Assembly (NCBI RefSeq): GCF_037975245.1
Contig: NC_092568.1
Coordinates: 4,477,001 to 4,541,000 of the forward strand
Length of the DNA: 64,000 nucleotides
Reading direction: 5' to 3'
Source: Apostichopus japonicus
Lineage: Eukaryota > Echinodermata > Holothuroidea > Aspidochirotida > Stichopodidae
Shown: one piece after another, positions 12,700-58,800 of the stretch
How the letters are laid out: each line of letters opens with the position of its first letter
How positions within the stretch are numbered: position 1 is the first letter of the stretch
The notes under the pieces: model-generated
Databases searched by the model: none
Told to the model about the DNA's origin: nothing
What the model saw: the letters and a program-made list of their open reading frames with translations, nothing else
Program-made: the position numbers and the translations under genes

Positions 12700-14483
12700 A
12701 GAAGAGATGGAATGAAAGAAAACAACACCGTTATTCCGCGTATGTCATATATTTTTTCGCACAAACAAATGGTATAACCTGCTCAGAAATAGTGCCTTTC
12801 AAAACAAATATCTCAAATAGACGCTTATCTGAGCCTCTGCAGCGTTGCTGCTCGTGTCACTTTGATAGTCTTCATACAAATCATTTTATATTTGCTAACA
12901 ATTAAGATCACGTCCGTACCTCCGGATGCAACAACCTTCTACCATGCAGGGAGTTGTTTTATAACAACTCACTGCTTCTACAATGAACTAAAATTTATCT
13001 TTTTCCCCTGTCGTGATGACAATTTAAGATCTTCTTGCTAAATTAATTTGGCACTGAGTAAATCATCCGTCGCTCTTCAAGGTTTGCTTATTAGTTTAAT
13101 TTCTCAGTTTACAACCGGCCGAACTCTAATGGGGTTTCACACTTATTGGTGTGATGGACAGACTTGTAGCAAGCATATATTTACTAGCCGAGAGTTGCTG
13201 CTTTATAGGATAAATGATAAAATTGAGCCGCTACCACATTTATAAATCAGCTCACCTGATGTTCACAAGTTTAAGTGGATGGTTACACGTTTTATTTAGA
13301 TATCTGTAGATGCTGTGTCCCGAGAAGAAAGCATATTCCGTCGATGATTTGCTTTATCAAGCCTCTTGGTAGATTTGGTGAAACTACTGGAAAATTTCGA
13401 TCTGAAAGGTGAGTATTACCTTGGTTTGTTCTTATCACAAACAGGTCCTACATTTTTATTGTAAAAGATTCAGCGCGCGCAGTCTGTAAGTGATGCTAGT
13501 TGGTGGTGGGCGGTGGTCGGATGTGGGATGGCACCACCGACCAAATTTATTTCTCTCTCGTTAGAAAAATAAACTCAATTAGAAATTGGTAGGCCGGCTG
13601 AGGGCAGTGGCCATGAATAGCAAGTAACTGTTAAAGAGTGAATCTCACAGCTAAAGTGATAGCTTCCAGTCAGACTTGGTGTGCGCAAGTAGGAGGGGAG
13701 GACGGATACACTATACCCTCCATCTTTCACTCGGGGAGAAATGGTTCAGTTGATTTTGTAGAATCATCCGGGAAGAATAAAACCACTGCTACGAGTACTA
13801 TTAACACAACCTTACGTTTATAGTTTGGACTAATTCATATAGCTTATATATATAGCCTTTGAAGAAGATCCTGCTAGGATCGAAACGTCAGGACAACTTA
13901 CTTTTACACAGCTTATATGCGTCAGAATACACCATTTGACGTGTAATTTTCTTTATGGGGGTGGGGGTTTTGACCTCTACATTGGAATGGGCTTCAACAT
14001 CCCCAGGCCCACACCCTCCTGTATAACATTCTTTATTCGCCTCTGGTCGTTCCTTCAAGGTTCATACCTACCTAGATCGGTCGGGGAAGTTTAGAATTTA
14101 CAACCTCCCCAACCTTTGAAATCTTTTGCACGCCACTTCTTCATATCATCTTAAATGTTAATGACCTATATAGGAATGACCTATACTGTATACGAATAAA
14201 AACCCGTATAATAACAAAATTTGTTGCGTTCAGTTATATTGATATGTCCACAAGAGAAAGGTTTTAATGCTTCTGTTCTCACGTCACTCCCAAATGATGA
14301 GATGGGCATGTATGAATCTATACATTTATGGCTGAAAAATTAGTGATTATAAGAACTTTTCTACAATAACGTGGAAACCTGAAAATAATGTCGTTCCCTT
14401 CATACTGCAGAATACACATGTGAAGCTGTAATTAACCCTATATCAGCTCATAAATGTAGTAAGTTGGATCATTCGTGTGGATG
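12700..14483. other. Intergenic DNA between divergent peptidase and glucosidase genes
   Basis: No gene is recognised. The only structured piece is a hammerhead-like hairpin at 13855-13895. Confidence 0.4.
13855..13895 (+). ncRNA. Hammerhead-like hairpin (GATCC-TGCTA-GGATC family), fragment
   Basis: TTGAAGA (CUGANGA box with C to T), an extra A, stem GATCC/GGATC with loop TGCTA, GAAA, ACGT, C, AGG. It is the same dispersed family as at 38721, 38768, 40265, 52942 and 53008. The box change and missing helix I predict an inactive copy. Confidence 0.55.
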
Positions 14484-24700: not shown

Positions 24701-27700
24701 AACGCGATGTCTTTTGTCTTGACCGCCCAGCCGTTCCGCTTGGACATCCTGTATGATGGTCAGCTAGTCACCAGGGTCAACTCCAGAGGACTCATGAACT
24801 TTGAACACCTTCGGACCAAAAAGAAGTGAGTTCGTCTTCCACCTTTCTTCTGCTCTGCGTGAATATTTTAATAGAGTGGTTTGTTCTTGATTAGAGGTTA
24901 GTGAGATTTATGTATGTATGATTCCAAGTTCAATTTCCCTAACTTGTATATTTAATACTCTGATATATATTGTTAAGTGATTATTGCCTCCCAAACTTGC
25001 AATTAGCTGGTAATTAGACTTCCTGGTTATTGACATTAACTTCCACTTCAATTTTCCTTATGTTATACAAGGAAGGGCCTTTAGGTTCACTTGTTCCAAC
25101 TCTTTTACTACTCTGTGAATTGTTTTGAAATTAACAGTTTCTTATAGTAAACATCGTGCCCCAGACTAATTGCGACAAAATTCCAAACGGAAGGGAAATC
25201 AGATAATGGCAAAACCACTTGAACTTGGATTCGTACCTGTCAAGTTTATTTGTGAATTTGTTGGAGGTATGCAGGAAGCATTGTTAATCTATATTGTATA
25301 TCTATATGGTACTGTAGTAGTGAGAGACCTTCCCAAGGTATTAAATGTCTTGATGTTTACATCAAATTCAGATTGCAAATGTTGCATAAAGATCCCCAAA
25401 TAGGTAGAACGATAACATTGGTGTCGCCCTTCGTCACTTTGGAAGATATTGACATAAAACTAAAATAGTCGCAGTATTGTGATCCATTAGAATTTGAGTT
25501 TACTGGCCTAAAGATACAGACTTAGTGTTCAATATACACCAAACCTATGCATTTCTCCTACAGTGTACACACTGATTTGATCTAAAGTTGTTACTTTTTT
25601 TCCGGCCAAAAACTAAGACCTGCTTGTCCTATGTGGACAACCAGAAAAATCCTTAAAAATTTGCCCTTTCTTGCATACAGAGAGATTTTGTTAATTTCCA
25701 TGATCATAATACTGTACCTGTACATAGAGGAAACTCAGCACAAGTTGGCTTTAGAAGCAATTTTTTTATTTTTTGTGGTTTTATTCAAGTCGTCAAATCA
25801 AACACCCTGTTTAAATTGTAATTAACATTTCTGTCTCTCACTCCATATCCACCAGCTGATCTTATCACCTTTTATTTTTATCTGGTTATAAAATATCAAA
25901 TCTCAGCGTGTGTTTTAGATTAGGAGTACCCCAGGAGGTTTCTCTCACTGTCGACTCGCCAAATTTTGTATCGTTCATCCTAAGATATGCTAACTCTCTG
26001 AAACATGTACATGTATGCATAATTCAATGCACGAGGCAACTAGCACAAATGCAACTGCACTACTTCATTCATATTGGTGTGAGATGGCTGATTGTTTGAG
26101 AAATCCTTTTGCATGTAAATTTACAGGTGATTCAACTTTCATGTGCATTGATAGAAAAAAATTGCACTGATTTATGCAGATTTAGAATGTTATATACAAA
26201 ACTGCTCTGTAGTAGAAGTTTGTATTAATTCATATTAAACGTTATACTGATGCTTAAAAAGCAGCCAACAAATGATTAAGTTAATACATTCCTTGATAAT
26301 ACGACCTGTTATGTTATTCCCAAGTGCTGAGACAATTAAATGTCTCAATGAGGAGAAACGACTTATGGATGCAGGTAAAATGCTTTTGGAACATGAGTGA
26401 TTGTTATTTGACTAACTCCTAGCATAGGACAATACCTTAGAACTGATTGGATCCTCAATGTACAATGACATAGCATTTCTTTTTCTCTCTGCAATTTCAC
26501 TTAACCTCTAAATGTTGTCAAGTGGTCTACAACAATACAACATAGTAGATGTAATTTAAGTCTAGCCTAACCTGTATACAGATGTACCTCGGTCTAGCCT
26601 AATCTACAAACAGATGTACCTAGGTCTAGAATAATCTGCATACAGAGTACATAGGTCTAGCCTAACCTGCATGTACTTCTGTAGGCCTTGTCAAGTCTGC
26701 ATACACATGTAGGTCAAGTCTAATCTGCATACAGATATATCTAGGTCTAGCTTAATCTGCATGCATATTTAGCAAGGTCTAGTCTAACCTGCGTACACAT
26801 GTACTTAGGGCTAGTCTAACCTGCACACAGATGCACCTAGGTCCAGCCTTATCTGTATTGCTTTAGTGAGGTTGTTGAATATTGTCATCCAATTATTATA
26901 AATACTTGCTGATGTATCAATTTTTGACAAGCAGAAATACTTCATATCATCCATGTGGAACAATTGCAAAAAGTAAATGATGAATGAATAAAATGTTTTA
27001 TAATTCACAGAGATGTATAGTATCATTGAAATGCAACAATCTGCTGTACATTTCAGGTTTTACAGTTATCTACAAGTAAGTTTCAGAAGTAGTAGCCAAA
27101 GTATTTATTTTTTTGTTCTTCTTTTTACTTTCTCCTTAGTGTTGATCCTCCTCAGGATGAGAATGAAGAGGTAAGTTTCTCCCCTTTCCTATATTTTCCA
27201 ACATTCCCTTTCTCTTATCTTTCATTTGCTATTAATGGTTTTTTCCTGTAGTAGGTCATTATTCTATCAGATTTAAGACTTTTGCAAGTCTTTTAGAATC
27301 TGCTAACACCAAGAACCCATTATTAGTGCAATAAGGGATGTTTTGATTACTAAGGTGGCTACATTACATAGCAAAACATAAAGTGATTTGAGATAGCATA
27401 CATATAGCTGTCTTAATTAAAACAGTTAACAGAACAGTAAACAGAAAACAATATAATAGATAAAAACAGGAAATCTGAAAGTATATTCATGATGGTGGTC
27501 GTTTTTTCCCTAAAATCTTTCAGGAGAAAAAAGAGGAAGAGGGAGAAGAGCAGGAAGAAGAGGTTGCGGATGATTCAGAAATAGAAGATGAGAAGGCGGA
27601 TGGCATGTGGGAGGAGACATTTAAAACACATCACGATAGTAAACCAAATGGTAATGTTTCATTCTTGTGATCTATCTCTACTTTGTGAGATATGTCAAAC

Positions 27701-30700
27701 TCTTTAAAACACGTACATCTTGATAGTCAACCAAATGGTAATGTTACATTCTTGTGGCACTCTATCTCTACATTTTGTGGAATATGTCAAACTCTATAAA
27801 ACACATCACGATAGTAAACCAAATGGTAATGTTTCATCCTTGTGGCACTCTATCTCTACACTTTGTGAAATATGTCAAACTCTATAAAACACATCACGAT
27901 AGTAAACCACATGGTAATGTTTCATTCTTGTGCACTATCTCTACATTTTGTGAAATATGTCAAACTCTATAAAACACATTGTGATAGTAAACCAAATGGT
28001 AATGTTTCATCCTTGTGGCACTCTATCTCTACACTTTGTGAAATATGTCAAACTCTATAAAACACATTGCGATAGTAAACCAAATGGTAATGTTTCATTC
28101 TTGTGCACTATCTCTACATTTTGTGAAATATGTCAAACTCTATAAAACACATTGCGATAGTAAACCAAATGGTAATGTTTCATTCTTGTGGCACTCTATC
28201 TCTACACTTTGTGAAATATGTCAAACTCTATAAAACACGTACATCTTGATAGTCAACCAAATGGTAATGTTTCATTCTTGTGCACTATCTCTACATTTTG
28301 TGAAATATGTCAAACTCTATAAAACACATTGCGATAGTAAACCAAATGGTAATGTTTCATTCTTGTGCACTATCTCTACATTTTGTGGAATATGTCAAAC
28401 TCTATAAAACACATCACGATAGTAAACCAAATGGTAATGTTTCATCCTTGTGGCACTCTCTACACTTTGTGAAATATGTCAAACTCTATTATAAAGCAGC
28501 TTATTACTCTTTCACGTAATACTGTCATAGCAATATTGCATTTTGATCCACCTATCACTATTTACAGTTATTCCTCGATATCTAAGTTTCTCTTCATCAG
28601 TAAATGAATTTTCAGTTGTTTATGCTTTCAAGACTGTGACAACAACTTTTGCTCATACTTTTTTTTTCTTTAATATGTTGAGGTTAGGCCTACCGTAGCT
28701 ACTGTATCTGCATATAGAAAATATGGTGTCATCTGCCCAGATAGGCTTAGTGTTGGAATTGTTTGTATTAATATTAAGGGACTTAACAAGAAATAAACAG
28801 TTCATGCCGAAGTTAATGTTTCAACCAACTGCTGTAACATACAGATTAGACTTCATTAGTTTTCAAAATAAAAAGAAACTGTTAGCAAACTGCTTATCCA
28901 CTAAAGAGCCAGTGTAAATTAATTAGGTTTCATAAGGAATGTGTGATGTCTTAACCTGCATATTGTAATTCAGTGCCACATTTAATAGTTGCATTTATAA
29001 ACTTCTCTTTGTCTTCAGGTCCTTCTGCGGTTGCTATGGATTTTACATTCCCTGGTTACGAACACCTTTATGGTATACCAGAACATGCCGATACATTAGC
29101 ACTGAAGACAACTAAGTGAGTGCTCTGTCCTTGATGCTTGTAATGAATTGAAGTTAGAAGAATCACACAGCACAAACTGCACAGTCTTTATTAGATTAAT
29201 GTTATCAAGCCATTGTGAGACATCAGAAAGCAACTTTCATGAATAACACAAGATTTTACCATTAATTTCTGTCTGGTATCAAGTACAATCTACATACATT
29301 GAAGTTATTATTATCACTTCAACATTGTAATTTGTCCATGGTTGAGGTCAGCTCAATATTAAAAGCTCCAGAAATAAGAATTGATCGAAGAGTTCTCTTC
29401 TGCCTTCAGTGATTGTACAACCATTTTGGTTTGTTCAAGTACTTTTCATTTTGTTTTTGTTTTTTTTGGGGTGGGGGGGTAAGGGTAAGGGTAAGGGCTG
29501 TGACTGTAGTGGGGCTGAGCTGAAAGCAAGGTTTAGGGTAACATTCAGTTCCTATTTTTATCCAAAGTGTATGGTTTGGTTCTTGTTTTTGAGTGGTACT
29601 GTATCATATCTAAATGAAATGATACAACTATGAACTGTTCTTCTGAAATGGAAACTTTTTCATATGTTAAGTTATATCAGTCGCATCGGGAAACCTTTGT
29701 TACATCTTTTTGTTTTCAGATCAGACGAGCCGTACAGGCTATACAATTTGGATGTATTTGAATACGACCTAGATAGCCGCATGGCCTTGTATGGGTCTGT
29801 TCCATTGATGCTAGCTCATAAGTGAGTACGCCTTCATAGGTTTTCTGTGTACCTTTAATTCTATAGGAAGGTCAGATCACCAAATGACAGATATCTCGTT
29901 TAATGTTAGCAAATAAATACAGGGAGATAACATACTTGACTGGCATAGTTTTCATCAATGGCTGTGACCATTATTTATATACATTCTGGTACAGAAATAT
30001 CATAAAAAATTTATCAGTCTTATTGTATTTTCATCTGGTAACAACAGTGTGTGACATCACTGTTGTACATTAGTTGAAAATGTTTCATTATGTAGAGTTT
30101 ACACTGGTCTGTGGACCACCTTGGTTTATGAAAAAGGATGGGATTGTCATGGATACATGAGAACAATGGACTATGGTCATAATGGAATGTAGTCTATATA
30201 ATGGAATGTAGTCTATAGTTCTAAGCTTGTCTATATGGAATTTCATAGATTGTTTCAGTATTACATTAAGATTAGAAATGTTTTGTATCCTCAGAAACAA
30301 AGTGATTGTGACCATTCAGGCACACACAATGCTTACGTTGATTTGAGTTGCTGTTAAGTGAGATAGAAAGTTAAATGTTATTTTGTCGTGATTATCTTCA
30401 CAGTTCTGATCGTACTGTCGGTCTGTTTTGGTTGAACGCAGCAGAGACCTGGATAGATATCACATCAAACACAGCAGACAAGGTAAAGAACAGGCTTTTT
30501 CATTTCTAATTTGTATTTTCTAAGCATCACTCATTAAAGGAATCTGGCTATCTGCTCTAGTTGCATTGAATTCCAGATTTGCTAGTCGATTTTTATTAAT
30601 GGTTACCTCATTATCTTGTCCCTCACACATACTTGTCTCTCACACATGACACACAGAAATTTATTATTTATTCCATCACTAATATCTGCATCTAAAGTAG

Positions 30701-33700
30701 CTGGTTGCCTTTTGTGCAGTTTTCCCAGATCCATTTGTCATAGAGTCATCAGTTAATTAGCGTTTCAAGCATTTAATTATACTGACAATTTCCAGCCTTG
30801 AGTGAAAAATTCCTTTTCTAAAGGCCTTTTGTATATCAAAGAAAATTTTACCACAGTATGGTATCTTTGGTACAGTAGTGTGAATATTTTGCAGAATCTT
30901 TTGTGTTAAGTGTATTTGCATGGCAGTATATACTATATAATAGTGTCTTGTTAAGAGAAGTCACTGCTTCAAGTTGCAAATAAACAGAGTTATTGTTGCT
31001 GTCAGAGAGAAGTCGTTCATTATGTAACACTTGCTTTAGTGTTGTATGATTTAACTAGACACTTCCCTACAACTGTACAACAGTAATCTCAATGTTTGTA
31101 CACATCAACGATTTCATTTGTCATCGATCTCATGGGTTTATCTTCAGAGTATGTTTGGAAGAATGATGGACTATGTGAAGGGAGACCAGGAGGTTCCCGA
31201 GATGAACACTCACTGGATCTCGGAGAGCGGTATCATTGATGTCTTCTTCCTGATGGGTCCAAAGCCCTACGACATCTTCAGCCAGTATGCCTCTCTGACT
31301 GGGCTACCGTACATGCCTCCGGTAAGTCACCAGCCAAAAGATTAATGGTCAGAATAGGGTATTGTCTAAAGGCTAATTATAATACTTACATGCCACCTGG
31401 TTTAAGAACTGTTGATTTGAATGTGGTATTTACAGCTTAAAGGAATCTGATAATGTACACACTGCACATAAGTCATCAGTTGAACAAATTTCAGGATTGT
31501 AGTAGGTTATTCCCAGTTTAAAAGCATAACTGATTGAAACATAACATTATAGGTTGAGAGACTAGGATGACATGAGTGTACCCATCTGTTCAGTCCGTGA
31601 ATTTAGTACTCTCACCTCATCCCTCACGCCCCATGTAAACCTTTCCTTCCTACCTTTATTTGCCTCTCCTAAGCAAACCAGTATAATGGGTAAAGACAGT
31701 TGCCCCCACCTGCCACCCAATGCTATCATATTTCCCGTCAATCACAGATATTGCTTTCCATTTAATCCCATTGTTTGTTGTTTTGGTGTTGACAGATGTT
31801 TGCTCTGGGATATCATCAGTGCAGATGGAACTATAACGATGAAGAAGATGTGAAAACGTAAGCAAACCTTTAGAAATATCTCGTTATATTTAGAATCCTT
31901 CTTTTTTCTCAAATGGTTGAAGTAGTTTAGTTTTACTTTTGTTTTCTAATATCAAGTAATTTTTTATATTTCATTATAATTAAGCACTTTTATGTCTAGC
32001 TTGTCTCTCTGCATTGTTTTAAGTTATTAATATATTGTTTTTTTAATTTAGTAGTTTTCTTTCTCATATGTTACATTTCTTCATTGGTAATTGTTGCTTG
32101 CTGCCATCATGTTTCTTAATCTGTTAACATCAAGGATACATGGTATATGTAAAATCATGGGTACTCTGTTATTTTTATCAAGTGAGCAACATGTTTTAGT
32201 TGAGTTATCAGAATTTGTAAAACAATGTATTAACATATATCCCCCCTCCCCCACCCCGAGGTGCTGACATCCTAAATATAGCTTCATTAGCATTCCAGAC
32301 ATTGAGCATAACTATTTTGAAGGTGAAAATCTTGAAAACTGGAATGGCGATAGAAACAATTACTAGCACTCAAATTTTATTTTTAGTTGGTCTGTGGCCG
32401 ATCAAGACTACAATTCATTCTTGAATATGTTTATATCTACATTTTTATTGTTATGGTTATTATGATTGTTGTTGTTATGATTATGCTTCACCCTTGGTAA
32501 TAAATTTTACAAACACTTGTGTAAAATTGAGCCACTTTGCATTAATAATAATGATATACTTTTCACCAGAATTCTTTTGTCTTTTTCAGAGTTGATGAAA
32601 AGTTTGATGAGCATGATATACCGTATGACGTCATTTGGTTGGATATTGAACACACTAACGGAAAGAGGTGAGTGATATGAACTGGTTTGAATTCTAATCA
32701 GTTATCAACTCTAATTATGCGGTTATTCTGCAGTTTTATCAATCTTACAACTGTTGTTACCCACAATATGATTGCAATGCATCACACTTTCACATTTTCA
32801 ACCAAATAAATATAAATTTAGTGAGTAATTCATTCATTCGTTTTTATTCTTAAAAGTTTTATATCACCTCGATACTTTTTCATATTAGTAATTATTATTG
32901 GCATAATTATTCAAAAGAAACTTGAATAGACAAACTGATGTACTACATGTTTAGTGGTGACCAAATATTGACCACACTCTTGTCACTCCTATAAACTTTT
33001 TTTCTCTCATTTTTGTTAAAATATATGCCTTGGTGCCCCATTCAATAATCATTTGAAATTTGCCTTGAGTGCCTTGCCATGTTATTGTCTCTCTTGATCT
33101 TTAATTATAGCTCTATATGTAACCTACAGAGGATTGTAGAGTGAATATAAAAATTGGGTAAATAGCTAATACAACTCCCCCACCACCTACTCCCCCCCCC
33201 CAGGACACACACATCCTTCTTCTCTCAACTTGTTGGAAAGAGAGGAACAAACATTAATTGATCTGATTTACTTAAAAGTGGAGTTATTCCTAAGTTTGGA
33301 CAGTTTTAAGCAATAAAGTTTTGACTAATTACACCTAAACAATTATTGAGTATGATAAAGTCAGTCATGGGTGTATTTGTGCTTCATCCTTTACTGTGTA
33401 TTTCTTATTTCACGCAGATACATGACTTGGGACAAACATAAGTTCCCAAACCCAATCGAAATGCAGAATAACATCGCCTCCAAGGGTCGGAAGGTAAGAG
33501 AGATGTTGCCCGATAAATCCAGTAGTTTACATGAGTATGCCAATTTCATCACATTTTGAATGAACCTATCGGGGTATTATCTGTCTTGAAATCTAGTATC
33601 CAAACTTAGAATTTATCAACAGGGAATACTAGTGTTTGCCTTCAAATATGAACTTGGTTATTAATGAGCAAACTACGGCAGTATTGTGCAGTCTTTTCGA

Positions 33701-36700
33701 TGTTAATTATTACTATTGTAAACTGTAAGTTTGATCCTCAAAGGTGAGTATATCCAGGAGGCAAATAGTTTTGAAATCATTTTGGTCATTTTAACTTTAA
33801 TTTTTGACCCAGTAATTTGATCCTAAGACACTAGTAGTCAAAGCCATCCACTAATTGTAGCTCATTATTTGTAAGATTCTTCAAATGGGGGGGAAGTCAT
33901 ATCCCCAAGAGTGGAAATATCATATCATAAAATGACATATCCCCAACACTGAAAATATCATATCATATCATAAAATGACATATCCCCAAGAGTGGAAATA
34001 TCATATCATAAAATGATATATCCCCAACAGTGAAAATATCATATTATAAAATGACATATCCCGACTTTGAAAATATCATCATAAAATGACATATTCCCAA
34101 CAGTGGAAATATCATATCATAAAATGACATATCCCCAACAGTGAAAATATCATATCATAAAATGACATATCCCCAACAGTGAAAATATCATATCATATCA
34201 TAAAATGACATATCCCCAACAGTGAAAATATCATATCATATCATAAAAATGACATATACCCGACTTTGAAAATAATAGTTTTTAATTGCTAAGAGTACTA
34301 GGCATCCCTATGCATTTTGATTTCTATGATATGTTGAAGTCTCGTTTATAGGTTGTGATTGCAGATTCCTCTTTTGAATAAACTTGTTGTCACTTCCTAC
34401 TGATGTATTCATTCTTTCTTTAATTAGTTGAATATTCAAATGAGCATTGAATCTAATTTGCATGTGCAGATGGTGACCATTGTGGATCCACATATCAAGC
34501 AAGACAATGGATACCATTTATACAAGGAAGCCAAAGATCAGGATTACTTTATAAGAAATAAAGACAACAATGAGTTTCAAGGATGGTGCTGGCCAGGTAC
34601 AAACAACAAAAGAAAACAAAACCCTTGCTAACCTCTTTACTTTTTGCCTCCACTATTAACCCATCTCAGTTTCCTGACCATCCTTGACATGGTTATGCCA
34701 GGTATGATACATATATGTTAAAATGCAGCTTCCTCCCTCACTGTGGATTGATTATCAAAATTAGGTATCAAAATTTTTATTTTTATTTTTATTCACAACT
34801 TGGAAGATACTTTCCAATGTCTCATAGTGAGTTTTCTTCTTTCAGAAATAATGAAAAAGAAAAGAAGAAATGTTGGTACAGAGGTCTGAAAGAAAATGTT
34901 TGCTTCACTCTTCACTTGTCTGTTTCGGCATAATTATTGGCTGTGATAATTTATGAATATTCACGAGTATGCTAATGTGATGTTAACATGTTTACATCAA
35001 GGGATTTTATTTTGTAAAAAGCAAAAGTACAGAATATTGTCATTCTAAGATGTTTCATACCTGGCGTAATCATGTTTTTTTTTGTGGCCCTTTTATACTT
35101 TGCCCTTTTTTCATAATTTCATCACCTTTTTTTACTTTCTCCTTCTGATATCTATTTTGATACTTTTCCAATTTTTCCAATAATGCTGCCCTTAAATAGT
35201 TAGTTGCAACGCTGGATCCACATCTGAAAAGATGTAAGAAATATACACTGTACAGAGAGGCCAGAAGTAATGGCTTCTTTGTGCAGAATAGCGCAGACAA
35301 AGAGTATACTGGTTGGTGTTGGCCAGGTGAGTAGGTAGTTTACCAAAGACATATATACTAGTAGAATGGAGCACGTCCATCTCAGAACCACCTGGCAGCC
35401 ATGTCGTGTAGAGTGTCTTGATAAAATCTCCTCTCAAATCTACACACTATGGACCAAATTTGGTATCCTTGCTGACTTTTGCTTTACTTTGGGAAACAAT
35501 AGTACATTCACAGAAGTTCACAACTAGTTTCTTCGGTTCCATATTAATTTAAGGCAGAACATTTTGATAATAGTTTCATTGAAAAAGTCAAACAAACCCT
35601 CAAATTTCAAAGATACAGGAATTGTCGACTGTTACATTTTACCATTTATTTTTGTTTGTGAATCCAGTTTCCTTTTACCTCAATTATCTCAATGGAAATG
35701 AAGGAGACCTTGACATCCTATGAACAAAAGCCATGCTTTATTCGGGCCTTCCTGACCTCCACGAGGTGCTTATTTCAAGCCTTGTGTATTTGTAGTAATG
35801 AGAAGTTCATTTCAACCATTAAACCATTCAGTTACAAGATGTTAAGTCCAGTTCAATAGTTGTATATTTTCTAGCAAAAAGAGAGTTGAACTTCCTGTGA
35901 ATCGTTCATGAACTATTTAATGATATCCTACCTTTGTCAGACTGGCAAGGTTGAATTCCCTTAAAGGCTAGAATAAACTTTACAACCATGACTGCTTCTG
36001 AGTGATGGTCTATCTAACAGACTAGAACATATGTCCTTGTGATTGTGGTCTGGTGTGTACAGTAGCTTGCATTGCAGTGAAGTAGAATAGAAAAAAAAAA
36101 GAAAAATTATTTTGAACAAATTCATATCTGACATTGGGAAATATTAATATATGCAAATTGCTATGGCTTTCAAAAGCACCCTTTTTAAAAAAAAATCACT
36201 CTTTTAATAACATCTTACTTCTGGCTCTTCTTATCATGCTCTTCTGCAAAAACAGTAAATTTCAAAATCTTGTGTTTTTTTGTAAAACCATATCCTAAAT
36301 TTTCATTTCAGTATTCCAAATCTCTCTTCTTTCTTTCAATCTTCAAATTGGCACATCTTTTATCTTATTGCACTGATTAGATACTGGTAACATTTACATG
36401 CTCTGTGAAGATTGTGAAATGTCTGATCTCTTCTCTATATTACTATTACATATATGTGATTGGGTTCACTACATGGTAAATAATGCTCCATGGCACAGCT
36501 TTTGCCTTCAACTCACTCAATAAAACAAAATCCACCCTTTGTTGATCTTTAAATATTCAATGCGTTATAGCACCTTTGGAATTTCACATGAGATTTAATT
36601 TTCTCAAATTTATGATTTCACTAATCGTATCAGTAAACATTCAAGCTTCTTTATGATTAAAACTTTTCCATAAGTGAACACCTGTTTTTCTCTTGCATAA

Positions 36701-39700
36701 GTTATTGTTTTGAACCCTCTTAGTCGGAGACGGTTAGAATTATGTGTAGTAATAGTGTTTAGTGTATGCAACAGTGTTGTAGCTGCTCTATAGGGTCTTG
36801 CCAATGTTTAGTTATTCTATAGAAATTGAAGTGAAATGTGTACTGTAGTATTTTGTGATATTTATGTCAAAAGTTTTGGATATTTTTGTAAAAGAAATAA
36901 CTTAACTTATTTTCAATATTATTTAACAAGTTTACTCTCTGTTCAAGAATCTTTGATAATTAGTGATTGATATGCAAACAAAATGGAAATCCTTTTTTTT
37001 TTGTATTGGCAACCGTAGTTTTGTATCATATTCTTGGCTTACTCTATGTTCGAATTTGCTAGTGGGTGTTTGTTGGGCTAAACAGAAAACTGTGAAACCC
37101 ATTATTCGTGTAGTAGTTGGATTGCTGTGAAAATTCCAATCAGTCTTATGTACCCTGACCAGATTTCAAAGAACTTCCAAGTTTAGGGCTGTGAAAGGTC
37201 TCCCTTTACATGCATTACATTTTTCAAAACTTTTAGACAATGCTCGCAAATCTAACTGACGGTGATACCTCGAAAGAATGTAACAGGACTTTGACAAGAG
37301 TTATATCAGCTACTCATGATAATCTCACTGGGCCATTACTGGTGGTTATATCAGCTATAATCTCACCGGGCCATTACCGGCGGTTACATCAGCTATAATC
37401 TCACTAGGCCATTACTGGTTGTTATATCAGCTACTCATTATAGTCTCACCGGGCCATTACCGGCGGCTATATCAGCTACTCATTATATCACCGGGCCATT
37501 ACTGGTGGTTATAGCAGCTACTCGTCACCGGGCCATTACCGGCTGTTATATTACCTCACCGAGCCATTACTGGTGGTTATATCAGCTACTCATATTCTCA
37601 CTGGACCATTACCTGCGATTATATTTGCGACAACAGTTTTTTTCTTGTGGATTTTACTGTTTAATGATAAGTTTTCACAACTGTACATTTTGATAATAGT
37701 TCAGCATCAGATGCCAGGTGGACATTCACAAAGTTTTCTCATAGTTGATTGTCATTTTATCAGTTGAAAGCCATGCTTTATATTAATGAGACAATGTCTT
37801 TGTTGTATTCCCCCCCCCTGCCCCCTCTTTCCCTAAACACAGGGTCATCTAGCTATCCAGACTTCACCAGGGAGGATGTACGTGCCTGGTGGGCCAGCAA
37901 AATGTCCCCAGAGCTGTACGAGGGTTCCACTCACAATCTCTTCACCTGGAATGACATGAACGAGCCCTCAGTCTTCAATGGTCCTGAGGTCACCATGCAC
38001 AAAGATGCCAAACACGCTGGAGGATGGGAGCACAGAGATGTTCATAATATCTATGGTTTTTATGTGGTGAGTGTGTGGAGGTGGATAGAAGAGTTGAGCC
38101 TTCTATTAATAAAGTAGCTGGTTGTCTTCTAACATCATGTTCCAACTCCCACTTCAGGGGTTTGTTCAAATTACTTGTGAATTCATATTAAAAGACTGGA
38201 GTTTTTCTGCCCTCTTCGCAATGATGCAGTTATTCACCGTGAGAGTCTTGTCACATATTCAGCCTGATTCCTGTATGCAAAGAAGCTTTAGGCTTGGTAT
38301 ATTTGGCATAAAAGATTAAAAGGTTTAGTCAAAGTACTGATATTGGTTTTGGAAAAATGGGAAACAGGAAAACAACTTCATCAAGACTTTAAACATCCTT
38401 TGTCACATTCATGCAAGATACAGATTCTGTTCAAGATTTATGGATGATGGGAAATATTTTGCTCAGAATGCAACCATCTTCTTCATAATATTTTGATTCC
38501 AAAGTTGCTGTATTTGTGATATAACATTTCCCTTGTTGACCAAATGTAACTTAACGACGATTTACCATCACCTGGTTAATAGCGATACTTCAAGGATAAG
38601 ATGTCAACCTATGAATTGCTTCAGATCTGAGCAAAGCAAGTGGTCAAAATAAAACAAAACTGTTTGCAAACTGCTTATCCACTGAAGAGCTTGTGTAAGA
38701 GAATGTGTAAAAGTAAGAAGGCCTGATGTTTCGATCCTAGCAGGATCTTCTTCAGAGGCTTGTCATTCAGCCTCTGCAGAAAATCCTGCTAGGATTGAAA
38801 CGTCAGGCCCTCTGACTTAACACAAAGCAGGTGGTGACAGCATGGTGCCATCATTTCAAGCAGTTTATCACAGAAACCAAAGTTTCTTTCTCATGTTTGT
38901 TCACAAGGAGGGTAAATTTGTATTAATCAATCTGTTTTTCCTTTCCATTTCAGCACAGAGCAACAGCTGAAGGGCAGATTGCCCGAACGGATGGCCGTGA
39001 GAGACCATTTGTCCTATCTAGAGCATTCTTTGCCGGCTCACAACGTTATGGTAAGTGGACAATAACACCAAGTGAGTGTGAATCAAATATACAACGTCCT
39101 AGTGTTTACTCAGCAGTTGCTTGCTGTGGGGAATCACATTGTGTCGTAAAACACTGTTTTGTCTTGTCGTCCTCGTAGGTGCCATCTGGACGGGTGATAA
39201 TGCTGCAGAATGGTCACACCTGAAGGCATCCTTGCCAATGTGTCTTAGCATCAGTATCGCGGGAATACCTTTTATCGGTGGTAAGTGGTTTTGGTTTCTT
39301 TCTGATTAATATGAATCTTGTGTTCCTTTGAGTCTTTACTTTGATCCTGTTTTACTGTTTTTCACAGAATAGGTCTGGTGGGTTTAAAGTAGATGTGCAA
39401 GTAGAGCTACTATACAGTAGACCATAGTTTTATAATAAAAATGATAATTATTATTTTTATCGTAAGTTTTATATGTCTGCTTTATAATAATATACAAACT
39501 TTCATGTTGACCTGCAATACACCAGACCTCCATTAGCACATATGAATCTGATAGATACCTGTCGGCCATCAATTCCATCCATGGTGACCTGCGCAGCTCC
39601 TTTTATTGTGATTATCACACCTTGCTTTGCTATTCTCCTTATCGAGGGGTTACTCTAGGACATACTGTTACCCTGTCCATACCTAAACTTAAAGCAACTT

Positions 39701-42700
39701 TGTCTCTATTCTTAAGTTGTTACTATGTCATCTGCATTCCATGAAAGCAAACGATCCCTGTTTCTCAATGTTAGTTGTTGATCCTCCTTTCAGCTGACGT
39801 AGGAGGCTTTTTCAAGAACCCGGATACAGAACTTTTAACGAGATGGTATCAAGTAAGTAACAGTTAGAGTAGGCTACATTTAATTATTAATGATAATTAA
39901 TTAATTATTAGTATTAATTATTCACTTTGTGTGCTTTTATATGGACTATTTTTTCAGGTGCTTGGTGAATTAGTACTAACTCCTACAACTGTAGTTAGCA
40001 TAGCATAATACCTGTATTATGATACCCAAACTCCTTTAATGTTGAATACATTTTGTAGTTCAAATTGTAATCTTTTCGGATAAAAGATTTTGCACATAGA
40101 TTTAAAAAAAAAAAACTTTTGAGGTGCAATGGAATCGGCGTTTGTCTTTGATATCAGTGGGCAAACCTCAATACTTTTGTCTTCTAAGATCTTCTGAGAG
40201 GGAGAACACTTAGCAATCTGCTTATCTACTGCAGAAAGTTAAATATGTACGTAAAGGTTAGAGGGCCTGACGTTTCGCTCCGAGCATGATATTCTTCAGA
40301 AGCTAACTCAGGCTTCTCCAGTTAGCCTCTGACATTTGTGGAAATATATTTGCCAGTTGGGATTAAATTAATTTGTTATTTTTTAAATGTTTTGATGTTA
40401 GCTGTTGTACTCCTGGTAGAATTCACCTGTATAACTGTCATGTGATTTTTGTTTGTTTCTCAGGCAGGAGCATATCAACCATTCTTCAGGGCACATGCTC
40501 ATCTTGATACTAAACGTAGGGAACCCTGGCTGTACCCAGAGGAAAACACAGCTGTGATTCGTACAGCCATCCGTAATAGATATGCCCTACTACCATACTG
40601 GTACACACTCTTCTACCAAGCTTCTCAAACTGGTGTCCCACCAATGAGGTAACAGACTCATTTTATTTTTGGGAGGGGGTGATGGGGGTGGGGAGGAGAG
40701 TACCAGTGGTTGTGCCTCTTCCACTTCTGTTGATTAATTTGGGATTTTGTAAGATTTGCACGTTCATCAAGGTTTTAATCTTGTGTGGACATAGGGCTGG
40801 AGGGGGTGGGGGGGGGGATGGAGGGAAGACATTGAGGGAGGGGTCTGTTGGATACTACCCATGTAGGATGCTACTAATCCAAATACTAATTCCTTTTGAG
40901 ACAGCTGACAGCAGACTGTATCCAATCACAACCTTCCTCTCGCCCGTCCTTTTTGCCAGCACACATACAAGCAGATATTTCCGTTAGTTTGTGATCTATT
41001 TACATGCAAGTCAATCTTACCACACAGAATTCAGTTGTCATTCTCACTTCACAACTTAAGGAAATCTTTGATAAAATGATGGGTCATATTTGAATTGAGT
41101 GTACCTTACTTTGTTTGTAGAGACACACTAATTAATGATTTAGATTGTTAAACTTCAGATTCCAGTCATCGATCAGGTTTAAATTATGCAAGTCGTCTAT
41201 AGTGTTTCATGTATTAATTCATGGATTGAGATGCATATAATGATAAGTTTCAGGAAATTGCTTGATATGTAATGTTTTGAGATTATTAAAAATGAGATAC
41301 AGGTCATTGATCCGGCTTTGATTTATATCGTCTGCTGTGTTTCTATTCATAAATTGAGACGAGATGATGTTAATTTAAGTTTAATTATTTCATATTCTAA
41401 TCATATTTTCCCTCTTCCAATACAGACCTATGTGGGTGGAGTTTCCAGAAGACAGTAAAACATTTGCCATGGAGGATCAGTATATGATAGGTATGACAGT
41501 ATGAGTTAAATGTTAACATCATGTGAGAGGGGTGGAGTGAAGGGTGGGGAACAGTGACTTTACAGGGGGCGGGGTGGAAGCTGACAGTAAAACATTTGCC
41601 ATGGAGGATCAGTATATGATAGGTATGACAGTATGAGTTCCATGTTAACATCATTTGAGAGGGGTGGAGTGAAGGGTGGGGAACAGTGACTTTACAGGAG
41701 GGGAGGGTGGGAGCTGTCTGTGTTTGAAATCTTATGTTTTTAAACCATCCTTTATTTTATTCCTCATATAAAGGAACAATAAATAAACAAATAAACTGAC
41801 TAGGAAATTATAAAGATTTGAAGGAGACTTTATTGTTATAAATGTATTCACACTGGTGACCAGCTATGCGTATTAGGTATAAAAAGATTGCTTTACACAC
41901 TTCCCTATCCAGCCTCTAGCTGGTGGTACTTGGTGTTACTTCTTTCCGAGGGTACCGGTCAGAAACCATGGTACCCTGCAACCGCTATTACTGCGAATGT
42001 ATAACCAGAGAAAACAAACCAGTATCATTGATACAATCAAGAAAATTACTCGGAACAGTTTCAAGAGTTCAACAACGCAATTCAGTGATGTTTTCATATG
42101 TAATGAACAGAAAATACAGATGGCAAGTAACAGTAAAATTTTGGAAGATCAAACATCATTAGCTAGAATGGTATTTGAACCAATGACCCCAAGAATAAAA
42201 GTCCTGTGTTTTTTGTCTGGTTGGTAGACTAAATCTGTGATAGTTGTGGTTATATGCCTCATTATGCTAATTACTTTTGTAGTTCATGAATTATCATATT
42301 TCATAATCATTAAAATGTTTTTCACTTTCATAAATTAATCATGACTTTAATTTAATAATTACGACTATATCATTTGTTCTCTTCTTTATTCAAGGCTCAT
42401 CACTTTTGGTTCGACCAATCACCGATGCCGGAGCGACGTCTGTTTCCGTCTATCTGCCGGGACAAAACACAGTAAGTATGAGTGGTCTGGACAATTAACA
42501 TTCATTAGTACTGCACAGGGTTGGCAGTAAAGCTTAAAAGCCTGCTCACCCACCCAAAAAATTGGTCATTCACAAAGCCAATAAATCCAGGCTGGACCAA
42601 GGCTCTTAAAGGTACGAGGTTTAGGTATACCATTGTTGTGCAGTTATTACAAGATTTAAGGGTGAGTGTTTGGAGGAGATGCCATCTGGCTTGAAAAATC

Positions 42701-52149: not shown

Positions 52150-52817
52150 TCATATTTGTAACACCAGCCCAGCCGATGAGACATTATCCCCACCCCCAGC
52201 AGTCATATTAATATCAGTACAAACCAATACCGGAGCCACGCAGATAGCTACTTCCCCTTCATCCCAACAAGACACAGGCCTGTCATTTCTGAAAGGCATC
52301 CTTTCACTTCCAGCCTCTTCGGAGATGGAGAATGATTCATCCATGATGATTCTAGACTTGGTGACGTCCACCTTGGAGGTTCCGCAGACGTACCTGTTTG
52401 CCGTCAGGGCCGCTTTGGCCGTTGCAGACATGGTGTTCTTCCAGCCGGAATCCTTGGCTGTCATAATCGCTTGGAATGCTAGAGTATGGACATGGAGTCT
52501 GGACAATCTCTTTTCCCCTTCGGCGTTTGGATCGTTTCTGAGAGAGTTGAACACAAACCTCATCTGGTCTAGAATTGTGGCTGTCCGGGGGTAAGGATCA
52601 GCTAGCAGACTCACATTCCCGTAATTCAGAAGACTGTAAAGGTTTGGGAGTTCCTGTTCGTTCATACCGATAGAGTTCGAATATGGAATTATGTACTGCA
52701 GTAGGTCACGGAGCATCTGTTCCTCGGCAAAGGACGCAAACTCAAAATGCGTCTTGATGTCTGGTGATAAGCCAACCATCAACTTCTGTAGTTCCAAAAG
52801 TCTGGATTGTCTCTCCT
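52150..52817 (-). CDS. ADPGK: ADPGK coding exon 5 (catalytic C-terminal half)
   Basis: 668 bp, residues 253-474, after a CAACAG acceptor. It has RQSRLLELQKLMVGLSPDI, HFEFASFAEEQMLRDLL, SIGMNEQELPNLYSLLN, LHVHTLAFQAI and TAGGGDNVSSAGLVLQI before TGA. It is one large exon here. Confidence 0.96.
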
Positions 52818-55800
52818 CTGTTGCAAGAAAGTTGGTTCATGGGGTGAAGTGAACATGTAAATCTATTCATCTTGACATATATAATAAAATAGAAAAACAA
52901 GACTAACAAAGTAAAATAGTAACTGTGTAAAAGTAAGTTGGCCTGACGTTTCGATCCTAGCAGGATCTTCTACAGATCGAGGCTAAATGAAGAGGGTATT
53001 TGTCATTTAGCCTCTGTAGAAGATCCTGCTAGGATCGAAACGTCAGGCCAACTTACTTTTTCACATTCTATTACACAGGCTCTCTAGTGGATAAGCAGTT
53101 TGCTAACAGTTTTATTTTATTTTAAAATAGTTACTGACATAACCTTAAGATCCAATTTAACTAAAAGTTTGACTCAGCATTAAGTCATGAATACAAATGC
53201 ACGAACATGTATACTTGTTAATGAAGGAACTACTTTTGATTGTGTAGGGGTGAAGGGCAGGAGTTGGGGTTTAGGGGGGGAGGTGTTTGCTCACCAATTT
53301 TAACTTCACCTGCAGAGAATTACAGAAAATAAATTTGTAACTATAAATATACTACATTACTTCCAACTTTGGGGAGCCCTACATATAGACAGCAGATCTC
53401 TAGGTGGAACAAGTTTGGCAAGTGAGTATCCAGAATTACATTATCATGTAGCATGGTATCCAAAACACTCTCCAATGTCAGTTGTAATGTGACATGGCTG
53501 AATAAACTTCTAGAAACAAGAAATGCAGCTTTATTTTGAACAACTTGGAGAGTGAATACCAGCATTGGAATACCAGCAGTACTAAATGTACCATACATCA
53601 CAAAAAACTCAAGGTTTTAAAAGCTACAGTAGAGAGGCCAGCTCAAACTCATACCAAAGTTATAACAGTAGATAGACCATGACTGCATAATATACAGGTA
53701 CCAGCAACAGAGTTGGACAAGATAAGCTGGGTGATGATTAACTAAGACATCACGCAGTTGTGTGTGAAGACACAACCTTGCACTACAACAGAAGTAGAAT
53801 CACATCTGCACAGGGAGTATGGGGACATAACATACTGAATAAGTAATACTCCTTGTTGAGACTAAAAGAAAGTATTTGACATAAATGAGTCAAAGTTGAT
53901 AGTTGTAGATATCAAAGTACCGATAGTAAAGGGGGTGGTGGGGGGTGGAGAGGGGTTACCTTTTCTACCTTGCTATTGAAGGATGTGTACAAATTGAATC
54001 CAGTCTTCCCATCAATTTAAGGTGCTATTTACCTTCTCTAAATGGGAAATTATCCATCATCTGTAGTCCTCCGATGACAACTGCCTGTGGTTTGAATGCA
54101 CCTAATTCCTCTCTAAACTCATCTAAAGATTCCAGCATCGGATTGGACGAGTCCGAGTGGACAATAAACCTACAGATAGAAGAAAACAAAAGAACATTTC
54201 ATAATCAGGTAAAACCATGTTCACACAGGTCTGGGAACAATAATGTTTGAGGGGGGGGGGGAGAGATGTGGGGAGGGAGAGAGTAATATTATTTGGTTCA
54301 TAAAATACGTAATGGTTTATACAAATGTTCTACTCTATATTCGATCATATTTCATTCACGAGTCACAGAGTGAAACACTTCTTGTGACAGACTTTTCATC
54401 ATTTTACACCACTCATGGTTTAAAGCACAACTCTGCTTTTCTAGCAGCTCTCATGAGCGCATTTTGTCTGAGCACATCATACCAGCAGAAGGGTTAAACC
54501 CGTCATATGCCTTCTGTAATCTCGCTATACCAAACCAACATGATTGATACAGAGAGTATCATGTGAAGTAAGAGTAATGAAGCTCTTAACTTATACTGGT
54601 TGTTTACCAGTTGTTAGTAAATGTAATTCTCTTCACTATACGTACTCCATCTTACTTCTCTGATGCTCTTATATGTATCGCAATAACATGTGTAGCCTAT
54701 ATACCTTGAACCAGTAATTTAGTTGCACATTGTTCAAGGAAATGCAGATCAAGTGTTAAGGAAACAGTTCAACACAAGAAGCCTTCATGATGTTTCGATG
54801 AGTCTGGAGAAATTAATCTTTGATGTTTGGGTTGTAATAATATTACATTATGTTCTTCTTCTCAACAAATACATCCGATAGGCATGTACCCTTTGGTGTA
54901 ATTTGGTGATTAACATAAACATTGGACCATTATATTTTCCGTCGAGATTTTGTTTTAAGATGCTAAGCTCTGTAAGGTACAAGGTCACTGTTCAGAGTAT
55001 AGATTATTACAGATTTATTAATTCCACTATTTCCTACCTGTTAGCTCTTGGCGTCTTATATTTCCCCCAAACTTCTCCAGTTTTGTACTCCATTATTAAG
55101 TGTACATCATCCTTTTCCAGAGGAGTGCCGACAACTACGAAGTAAGAAACAGAAATATTAGAAAGCAGCATGTCTTAGTGATTCCTTGCCACATTTTATA
55201 TGAAAACATTCAACAGTAACAATGCATAAACATTTTTTTTAAAAGTTTTGACCACAATTGAGTTTAAAAAGTAATGATAAAGGTTCTTACACTAATGTCC
55301 GTTGGACCAATGCTTCACTTTACGATTTAAGTTGCTTACAACTATTTCCAGCTTTTTTTACCTCTCTTCACCTCAAATGACCTTTGATCTCAACAATAAC
55401 ACAGGTTCTTGCACTTGCCAAGCATAATGAATGAGTTATTGTTTTTTTTAAGGTTTTTGTTTCTTTGACAAGATCTGCCAAAGTCAAGTGACTTTGACTT
55501 ACAACGAAATGTTAGTGGTCTTTGCAATTGAAATGGTACAGTTGATCTACACACCAAGCATGCAGTTCCTCCAAGCTGTAACCTATGAGCCATTGTTAAC
55601 ACTGTTCACACTTTTCACTATCGGTTGACCTCAAGTGACCCTCACCTTAAAAGAAGCAGTAGGGTCATTCTGGTCACAACGCAAATTAGTTCAACCATCC
55701 TGTACTTTCTGAATCATCATGTTTACAAGCAGTGTATCATACACACAGAATGCACACATACACAACCATGCCACATCACCACCACAAACAGTAGATTCCT

Positions 55801-58800
55801 CCAACCTTCCACAAGTAATCAAAAAGTGTGTGGTTGTTTATTTTCTAAGTAGAAATAATTAACATTAAAAACACAGAATATCCATAGTTTGACATCTGGT
55901 CATCTGATTCACATCTCTCTTTACTTTATAGTATTAAATTGCATTAATAAAATAGATACAAAAATTTGATTTTTTTTTTTTGAAAGGGAGAAACAAATTT
56001 ATAAATCATGGTTCAAAAATGGTCTCTCTCTCAAACTTTTTATTCATCCTCAGGCTTAGAGATAGTGTGTGTTCAAAGTCTTTGTTTAAATAAAACATAC
56101 ATGTATTTACTGTGTGCTACATTGTATCAATTAATAATTAATTAATAAAAACAAAGATAATCCACAATGGTGTGTTGAATCTGTATCTAATTATTATGTG
56201 GATTCATCAAGTTATTAACATACAGTATGATATGAAGATCAATAGTAAACATGTCAGAGTAATGAACAGAACCAAACAATATCTTTTTTTCTGCAATATT
56301 GCAGAACAATGCAACTTAAAACTGGCTAATTGAATCTCAATGACATCAACTGACGTACAAACAGTGAGACTTTCAACCTTTGCCTCTAATAATTCTTTCT
56401 TCATGTTTTATTTGTATTCTCCCTGAATTTGCCCAAAATTTGCATCTCATTGCATTTTGTTCTATGTCAGTAAACTTTTCAAAAAATAACCTTTCTGTAC
56501 TGAAAGAGACAGAAATCACATCATGCAAGGCATAAGCAGGCAAGCAAATCAGTTCCTTCAAAACCCGGATGTTTCTTTCACTTCAATTGCTCTACTGTAC
56601 ATGCACATTCACCCTCATTTATTCATACCATGCGCAGTATGTTCCTACCCTTCAAATATATTTTTCGGTTCTGGCAGACAGAATTTTACCAGAGCACCTC
56701 AATAGTGTATGCCTGATATGCACATATCTCAAAGCAGTTTACTTCCTATGCCATCAACACAAGTTGGATTGATCTCTAATTTGTTTACGAGTTTGTGGTT
56801 GTCCCTCAGCCAGTAGAAACTTCATAGCTGAGTTCAAAGTACTGATATATGTCCGAAAAAACAAAACAATTGTTGTTGCAAAGATAAGGTGGTTCTGCTT
56901 GTTGCTCAGACTGTAAGGATAGTTTAAGAGTTGGACTGTCCATATTGTTTGAACATCTCAGACCCTCCAAATAACCTTCAAAAATCAGAATTGAGAGCAA
57001 AATGTTCCAATTTGAATACTAACTCTGTACATTGCCACTCTAGGTTATTAACCTAGTCTTTACTAACCTGATTAACATCTGAGAAATTTTCTCTGGAATA
57101 CAAGCTAAACTTCATGCATGACACCCATGTGGAACAAAATGATCATTTCAAATTGAGCTATATAGAAGTCATCAAAAAGCCACCCCCCCCTCTCCATACC
57201 CCCTATGCGGTTCCAGCAGATTTTCTTGCTCTCTTAATTGTATCCTTTGTGGTTCAGAAAATTTATTTAAATTTAGCCATTCACCTTTCACCCCTTCCTG
57301 GAGTTGACCCCTTAATTTCTGGGACATGCGACCGCCTAGTAGTACCTCACAGCCCTCCTTGGCTAATCTGTTGGCCATAGCTGGGGCATTACCACCGATG
57401 TACCACGCTGCACTGGGTTTCTTCTCCACCAATTTTAAAACATCTTCAAACAGGGCTTTGTCATGCAGGTATCTCCTTAAACATAAAAAGAATAACATGT
57501 TCAGAGTGAAAGTACAGTAGTCTCAGTGAGCTGTGTTACAAATCTATGTCACTAACTACACAATGTAAATTATACAATCTACCATTGAAATCCCATGTCA
57601 CCTATTACTGCACTTCAAAACCGTGACAGTCCAGTTTTAAGCCTAAACTTAAGGATCCTGGAAACCGTGCTGTTAGATCTCAGTGCAATATTGAGTCATA
57701 TTGGGTTTGTATTGGGCAATAGCCTAAAGACCCTTTCACACTTTCCCAGATCATGTGACGTACAGTTTGGAATGAACCTTAGCGCAATGCGATTCAGCAG
57801 TTTCAGTGACCTGGAAAGGCAAAGATGCGTGAAACTATGTATCCAGAACGAGTTGTAACTGGTCCAGTATGCGTTTCCATGACGTGCTAAGGATTATTAT
57901 GAATTTAGCATCCTGGGTCTACTTCGTGTAGGTGCAGATAACTAACAGATGGCTACAGCTTACTACGACTCTCTTACGGTTTGATGTGGTTCCACTTCCG
58001 CTTACTACATGGGCAGTTACTGTCCCCTTTGGATTATTAAGGCTGGGTACTGTACGTGGTATAAAATGGTCATTTAATGCAGTCATTCATTTCTCCCCCC
58101 CCCCCACACCCTCATGTTTCATACATTAAAGGACCTCTGGAAACCTCGCCAGTGGTAAAGTTCGTATATATATATACCCTCTAAACGTTGTCACATTTTC
58201 CCGTGGGGGCCAAAACTTTGTCAACCTCTCAGTGATCAGGGACCAAGGTTTTTTTCGAAAAACGTTTTACGTGCAAAGTCAATGGGTGATAAATTGGCAA
58301 AGTTAACTTGCTTGACAAGCCCCTTGCCCCTGTAAAATAAAGGAATTATCCCGGTGAGGGGGGTTGTGATAAATTTCGTATATACCCTCTAAACGTTGTA
58401 TGAATTTGGAGGCGAAAGGATGTCGCGTTTTCCCATGGGGGCCAAAACTTTGTCAACCTCTCAGTGATCATGGACTTAGGTTTTTTATTAGATTAGTTAT
58501 ACGTGCTGTCAATGAGAGATTTTGGACACAGTCGAGATTTGTGTAGGCTACTACTGCTTGAGATTTAGCCTCTGTTAGCGCTATAGCCCCTACTGAACTT
58601 ATAACTAATCACGTTGTTAGGGTAAGTGGACTATTTGGGCCTACATATGGACTATCTGGACCTACGATACCATACTGGCCTATGCCACGGTTTAGTAACC
58701 ATAGATATAGGGCTGGTAGTTGGCCTAATCAAAAGAATTGTGCGTTAAAAGTTTGGACTGAGGCTGTACTATACCGTTAGGCCTACATTACATGAAACTC

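Follow-up and report, generated by a model that had tools for sequence, protein, structure and literature searches.

Old tandem-duplicated exons in the glucosidase II alpha gene of Apostichopus japonicus probably yield two mutually exclusive versions of an active-site segment

Results

The GANAB locus

The window is a stretch of 64,000 nucleotides of the sea cucumber A. japonicus (contig NC_092568.1, positions 4,477,001 to 4,541,000), and all coordinates below are positions within it. Its plus strand carries the gene for glucosidase II alpha (GANAB) from 23215 to 47542, where we placed 25 coding exons; the exon with the start codon lies outside the placed set. When these exons are joined at their splice sites, the spliced frame stays open for 928 residues. 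Residues 5 to 927 of that frame aligned with PDB chain 8d43_A, neutral alpha-glucosidase AB, with 1218 bits. We take this chain to be human GANAB. A domain search placed PF01055, PF13802, PF21365 and PF17137 above their cut-offs with either version of the exon described below. The preliminary description had named the gene as glucosidase II alpha, and the near-full-length alignment and the GH31 domains bear out that identity. The WNDMNE and WTGDN motifs of the sea cucumber protein align with PDB GANAB chains. For glucosidase II alpha of Chaetomium thermophilum, Asp556 and Asp633 are given as the catalytic nucleophile and the acid/base residue (PMC4742823).

Several repeated structures were seen in the window. 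At 27638-28445, a GANAB exon end and its donor are repeated in tandem; counting the genuine junction, there are 10 copies at up to 3 mismatches, and the array presents up to nine consecutive decoy donors. A second exon-intron junction of the gene is duplicated in tandem at 41451-41716 (132-bp unit, 2 copies, 94% matches); by eye, read-through from the first copy hits a stop ahead of the second. Tandem arrays of about 38 bp lie at 33898-34240, in the intron ahead of exon A, and at 37300-37588, past exon B, with units that look unlike. A fold-back element with the core CCTGACGTTTCGATCCTAGCAGGAT was matched 6 times in the window when up to 3 mismatches were allowed, and long hairpins form at two of its places; it lies at 38711-38818 and 52924-53065, and also at 13868-13892 and 40266-40290. 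Outside GANAB, two ADP-dependent glucokinase reading frames (PF04587) lie on the minus strand at 52150-57522, and a minisatellite-like stretch rich in SFPILPHP at 3516-5374 is open on both strands and in several frames; it looks like repeat DNA and not a gene.

Two versions of one exon

The pair lies between an upstream exon at 33418-33493, which ends in phase 0, and a downstream exon at 37843-38066, which carries the nucleophile motif WNDMNE. Exon A spans 34470-34596 and exon B, the alternative version, spans 35200-35326, all on the plus strand. Each is 127 bp long, stop-free, and of phase 0 at its start and phase 1 at its end, and an intron of 603 nt separates them, so that the anatomy first described for the pair was found again. 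Exon A is the closer of the two to the GH31 profile. Aligned without gaps, the two versions have 18 of 42 residues identical (E = 1e-17 for this single comparison), the same count as had been reported, and 74 of 127 bases. The likeness is far above chance and, judged on these alignments, the exons are homologous.

We searched the animal's own genome (671,581,487 bases in 35 contigs) for other copies. With exon B as the query, two places were found at E ≤ 0.001, exon B itself and exon A, and the exon A query gave the same result. At the same threshold, the downstream exon has one place. Because exon B matches two places and the downstream exon one, both enzyme versions can come from the GANAB locus only. 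An origin of exon B in another gene, a pseudogene or a repeat is rejected, since its sole genomic matches at E ≤ 0.001 are A and B. This conclusion rests on the exon B query; a GH31 family search of the same genome gave 48 matches. The 603-nt intron was found in one genomic place at E ≤ 1, and its 421-nt core in one at E ≤ 10. A 151-residue piece in its B form found no relative among viral contigs, and in its A form gave 11 pattern matches in prokaryote genomes, of which 0 were confirmed. In the sea cucumber genome, a contig of 16,099 bases carries a COX1 whose frame is full-length under the echinoderm mitochondrial code. Five further COX1 matches were found on another contig (C29:14745-31219); their likely source is either nuclear copies or a piece of the mitochondrial genome that was misassembled.

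Position of the segment in the enzyme

In the Chaetomium structure 5dkx, the segment aligned with the exon pair is chain residues 451-492. The construct comprises residues 31-977 and the chain has 951 residues, which gives an offset of +26 and places the exon at residues 477-518. The offset was checked by the nucleophile, Asp556, which then coincides with the Asp of WNDMNE. Asp482 and Trp517 are listed among the residues surrounding the glucose, and subdomain B2 is given as residues 484-526 and as part of the pocket (PMC4742823). The same paper elsewhere assigns Trp517 to B3, at odds with its own ranges. In this numbering, exon residues 6 and 41 are Asp482 and Trp517, identical in A and B, and exon residues 8-42 fall in B2. 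By the published residue numbers, the exon encodes the last part of a barrel strand together with most of B2, one wall of the sugar pocket. The active-site location proposed earlier for the segment is thus upheld, as is the retention of its last Trp in both versions. In the mouse enzyme, Trp517 corresponds to W525, a residue of the +1 site that belongs to a loop (523-528) displaced by inhibitors (PMC12732852, PMC5390498).

The two versions differ most visibly in the loop past DPHI/LK, which reads QDNGYH in A and RCKKYT in B, the strong change that had been noted there. The net charge of the segment is -2 in exon A and -2 in the human chain, against +3 in exon B. Where A and human agree, exon B has Thr for Ile at position 4 and Cys for Asp at position 12, the latter directly past DPHLK; these departures count against the two-enzyme reading. 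Position 4 presumably contacts the sugar.

Splice signals around the pair

Splice sites were scored with a matrix built from the other introns of GANAB; the acceptor at 23215, which belongs to the first placed exon, was unscored. The acceptors of exon A (-2.6) and exon B (-4.2) score below all 23 other scored acceptors, of which the lowest reaches -0.1. In pyrimidine content, the acceptor region of exon A is the lowest of the 25 listed, and that of exon B is tied for second lowest. Of 23 other donors, 19 outscore the donor of exon A and 2 that of exon B, which is strong. The preliminary description had called the splice sites good. All have the AG and GT dinucleotides and the donor of exon B is indeed strong, but the two acceptors are the weakest of those scored and the donor of exon A is weak. 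Weaker splice sites are named as part of the control of exon pairs (PMC6071210), and weak sites on both members are what would be expected under regulation. The weak acceptors would fit a dying exon as well.

A U-rich stretch of 148 nt without AG precedes exon B (35050-35197), the second longest among the 25 acceptors. We read it as suggestive at most, since two other GANAB acceptors have stretches of 144 and 358 nt. The acceptor region of exon A contains TGCATG at 34459-34464 on the plus strand, 6-11 bases ahead of the exon and the sole plus-strand copy between the flanking exons. We take TGCATG to be an RBFOX-type hexamer; RBFOX bound at such a site is expected to block exon A. The hexamer may stand there by chance. 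The whole window, both strands included, holds 53 copies where 38 are expected, a count reached in 2 of 100 shuffles, so that the site is no evidence by itself and is kept as a weak lead.

Two mechanical routes to exclusivity were considered and put aside. With 603 nt in the intervening intron, exclusion through steric hindrance, be it from a short intron or from a distant branch point, is unlikely. U12-type splicing was set aside by eye: the donors are ordinary GT donors, and CCCTTAAAT ahead of exon B, compared with the U12 consensus, is too near the AG.

Retention of exon B

The comparison of A with B gave a pN of 0.34 and a pS of 0.77, the latter over 22.8 synonymous sites and close to saturation. 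Together these values imply an old split between the two exons with protein change held back. Each version has 18 of 42 residues identical with the human chain, lower in proportion than the flank before the pair (23 of 37) and the flank after it (54 of 72). When A, B and human are compared three ways, 12 positions are identical in all and 12 different in all, 6 carry a change private to A, 6 carry one private to B, and 6 are common to A and B only. With the human chain as the third member, 6 changes unique to each exon put the pace of B about level with that of A. The pattern is that of a star, and exon B appears to have changed no faster than A to any visible degree, although 12 informative positions give this comparison little power. 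Exon B also retains some family residues that exon A has lost.

Neutral evolution was simulated from each exon to the observed divergence. Starting from A, 190 of 2000 runs remained stop-free; one of the 2000 was stop-free and kept at least 18 residues, and none kept both DPH and GWCWP. Starting from B, 194 of 2000 runs were stop-free, 2 of them also with at least 18 residues, and again 0 with DPH and GWCWP. Of 2084 intronic stretches without a stop (20,000 drawn), 21 had a codon score at least as high as that of exon B. Among 803 GANAB coding windows, on which the score was trained, B stands at the 8th percentile and A at the 10th. Scored on its own against the GH31 profile, exon B gave 17.5 bits and exon A 31.7, with the Pfam cut-off at 23.5.

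Exon B could be a relic, an old duplicate that was once used and is now silent or nearly so, with only the A form being made. Its weak acceptor, pyrimidine-poor beside the AG, and its GH31 score below the Pfam cut-off would suit such a history. Against this, the frame of exon B is intact, its donor is strong, the catalytic residues are kept and its amino-acid rate equals that of A; moreover, the acceptor of exon A is about as poor, although A is the version closer to the family. The decay, codon and rate tests argue against a long neutral decay of exon B and are compatible with a recent loss. We consider the relic unlikely. Within what one genome can tell, and with a recent loss possible, both exons appear to have been kept by selection. 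Should exon A alone be used, the pair would be a case of a well-preserved relic exon.

Candidate RNA pairing in the intron

Exclusivity might be enforced by competing RNA pairing, with a docking site and selectors, as an addition to regulated choice between the exons. The possible left arm of a stem lies at 34686-34712, within the intron between A and B, and its possible right arm at 35050-35076, where the long AG-free tract of exon B starts; a speculative competing partner of the left arm lies downstream of exon B at 35388-35405 (all on the plus strand). Pairing of the left arm with 35050-35076 would leave B available, and pairing with the region around 35388-35405 would loop B out. This geometry matches the published docking-selector model (PMC6071210). 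At 26 of the 27 stem positions pairing is possible (3 as G-U). The stem scores 55, where 100 shuffles gave 37 at most, and is outscored in one of 20 other introns shorter than 1300 nt. None of 300 shuffles of the neighboring 300 nt, and none of 60 in which the whole downstream intron was shuffled, reached the energy of the second pairing, -28.3 kcal/mol. The intervening intron is itself no detectable repeat, in keeping with its single genomic place.

Other controls were less favorable. When the window was divided into 212 overlapping stretches of 603 nt, 11 of them, counting the one with this stem, had a stem as good, mostly TA repeats and fold-back elements. The second pairing was equalled once in 30 shuffles of the whole region and once among 60 random 27-mers, and another site near 37016 reaches -25.7 with the left arm. 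When the right arm is blocked, the left arm folds onto 35202-35215, at the beginning of exon B, instead of onto the second partner. The intron as a whole has a folding z-score of -1.03, with 4 of 20 shuffles folding equally well, and the sites were picked after looking. We regard the stem as a weak lead, and a role for it in exclusivity as quite improbable.

Reading-frame outcomes

With A alone or B alone, the frame of 928 residues stays open. Skipping both exons leads to a stop at codon 485, and joining both through the acceptor at 35200 leads to a stop at codon 501. It had been claimed that both or neither would break the frame, and this holds for neither and for both from the acceptor at 35200. 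It fails for a second AG, 4 bases into exon B (35202-35203, plus strand), which would start exon B at 35204 and shorten it to 123 nt. Double inclusion can keep the frame because this AG restores it: A followed by the 123-nt B is in frame and open for 969 residues. The 123-nt B without A is out of frame, with a stop at codon 454.

The use of the two exons might therefore be non-exclusive, either with a doubled 41-residue segment made from A and the 123-nt B or with B acting as a poison exon that tunes output by way of frameshift and decay. The open 969-residue product from 35204, the stop at codon 501 from 35200 and the score of the second AG (-0.6, against -4.2 for the main acceptor of exon B in the gene's own matrix) are in its favor, but the barrel would probably not tolerate a strand and B2 present twice, and a poison exon alone need not retain DPH, GWCWP and family residues; we hold this to be quite improbable.

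Discussion

The evidence is best explained by an old tandem exon duplication in A. japonicus GANAB whose members are spliced in a mutually exclusive manner, so that one locus probably makes two catalytic subunits. One of A and B would be chosen for each mRNA, and the resulting subunits would differ in 42 residues only. The weak acceptors would leave the choice to regulators. Most errors would be removed, as transcripts that lack both exons, or join the two through the main acceptor, would meet early stops and be destroyed, in the way described for U2AF1 (PMC5224494). Both proteins are predicted to fold, to keep their catalytic residues and to be active alpha-glucosidases, each acting on the alpha-1,3 bonds of Glc2/Glc1 N-glycans. 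The B form differs at the rim of the pocket, and the shift in charge from -2 to +3 may alter its substrate, partner or timing properties in one or another tissue or stage. We infer the use of both exons, their exclusivity, the activity of both forms and a functional difference between them from the features of the pair described above.

Glucosidase II helps to check protein folding and sets the time that a glycoprotein spends with calnexin and calreticulin. It is usually treated as a single constant enzyme. A bolder possibility, which we put forward tentatively, is that the animal has two glucosidase II enzymes with an acidic and a basic B2 swapped and thus two settings of the calnexin cycle, from a pair that perhaps predates the split of echinoderms and chordates. 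If the mutually exclusive use of A and B is real, the rate of the two-step trimming becomes a regulated, tissue-specific property, the sea cucumber pair amounts to a natural experiment on the B2 residues that set that rate, and an essential glycosidase joins the genes with old duplicated exons.

Mutually exclusive exon pairs are already known, and it is the placement of one in the active site of GANAB that appears unexpected and new. A report naming such a pair in GANAB or in any animal glucosidase II was not found in the open-licence literature searched. For vertebrate GANAB, where the preliminary description knew of no such pair, none was named in the parts of the literature covered, the splicing met there being a 66-bp insertion that gives two alpha subunits with similar enzyme activity (PMC9266668) and a cassette exon 6 that responds to PTB (PMC1940037). 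The vertebrate case is alike in that alternative splicing of the same gene yields two alpha subunits. It is unlike in that exon 6 is a 22-residue N-terminal cassette outside the barrel, which the text available from those sources does not describe as a duplicated exon. In the PDB alignment, the isoform-2 GANAB chain breaks at this 22-residue cassette. Among echinoderms, a neutral alpha-glucosidase AB model of Strongylocentrotus purpuratus carries the label LOW QUALITY PROTEIN in a published table (PMC9277089), for which a duplicated 127-nt exon might be one cause of several.

Exons 4a and 4b of OGDH are mutually exclusive, with distant branch points near the upstream donor and with their use proven from RNA (PMC7969005). 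Like the GANAB pair, they are an old exon duplication in a housekeeping enzyme of which one of two is chosen, and a long AG-free, pyrimidine-rich tract lies ahead of the second exon. The likeness ends at the mechanism, since distant branch points bring about exclusion in OGDH, whereas the GANAB intron is 603 nt long and, by eye, has branch-like sites at an ordinary distance. The use of the OGDH exons is known from RNA; that of the GANAB pair is predicted from sequence. Exons Ab and 3 of U2AF1 are likewise duplicated exons with splice sites of unequal quality, and nonsense-mediated decay is reported to lower the amount of mRNAs that carry both (PMC5224494). U2AF1 differs in being a vertebrate splicing factor for which the splicing of each exon was tested. 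A further comparison is with the structures of glucosidase II alpha itself, from Chaetomium and the GANAB PDB chains, which are of the same enzyme and supply the map of B2, Asp482 and Trp517. The aligned PDB chains have one version of the segment, whereas the sea cucumber gene has two.
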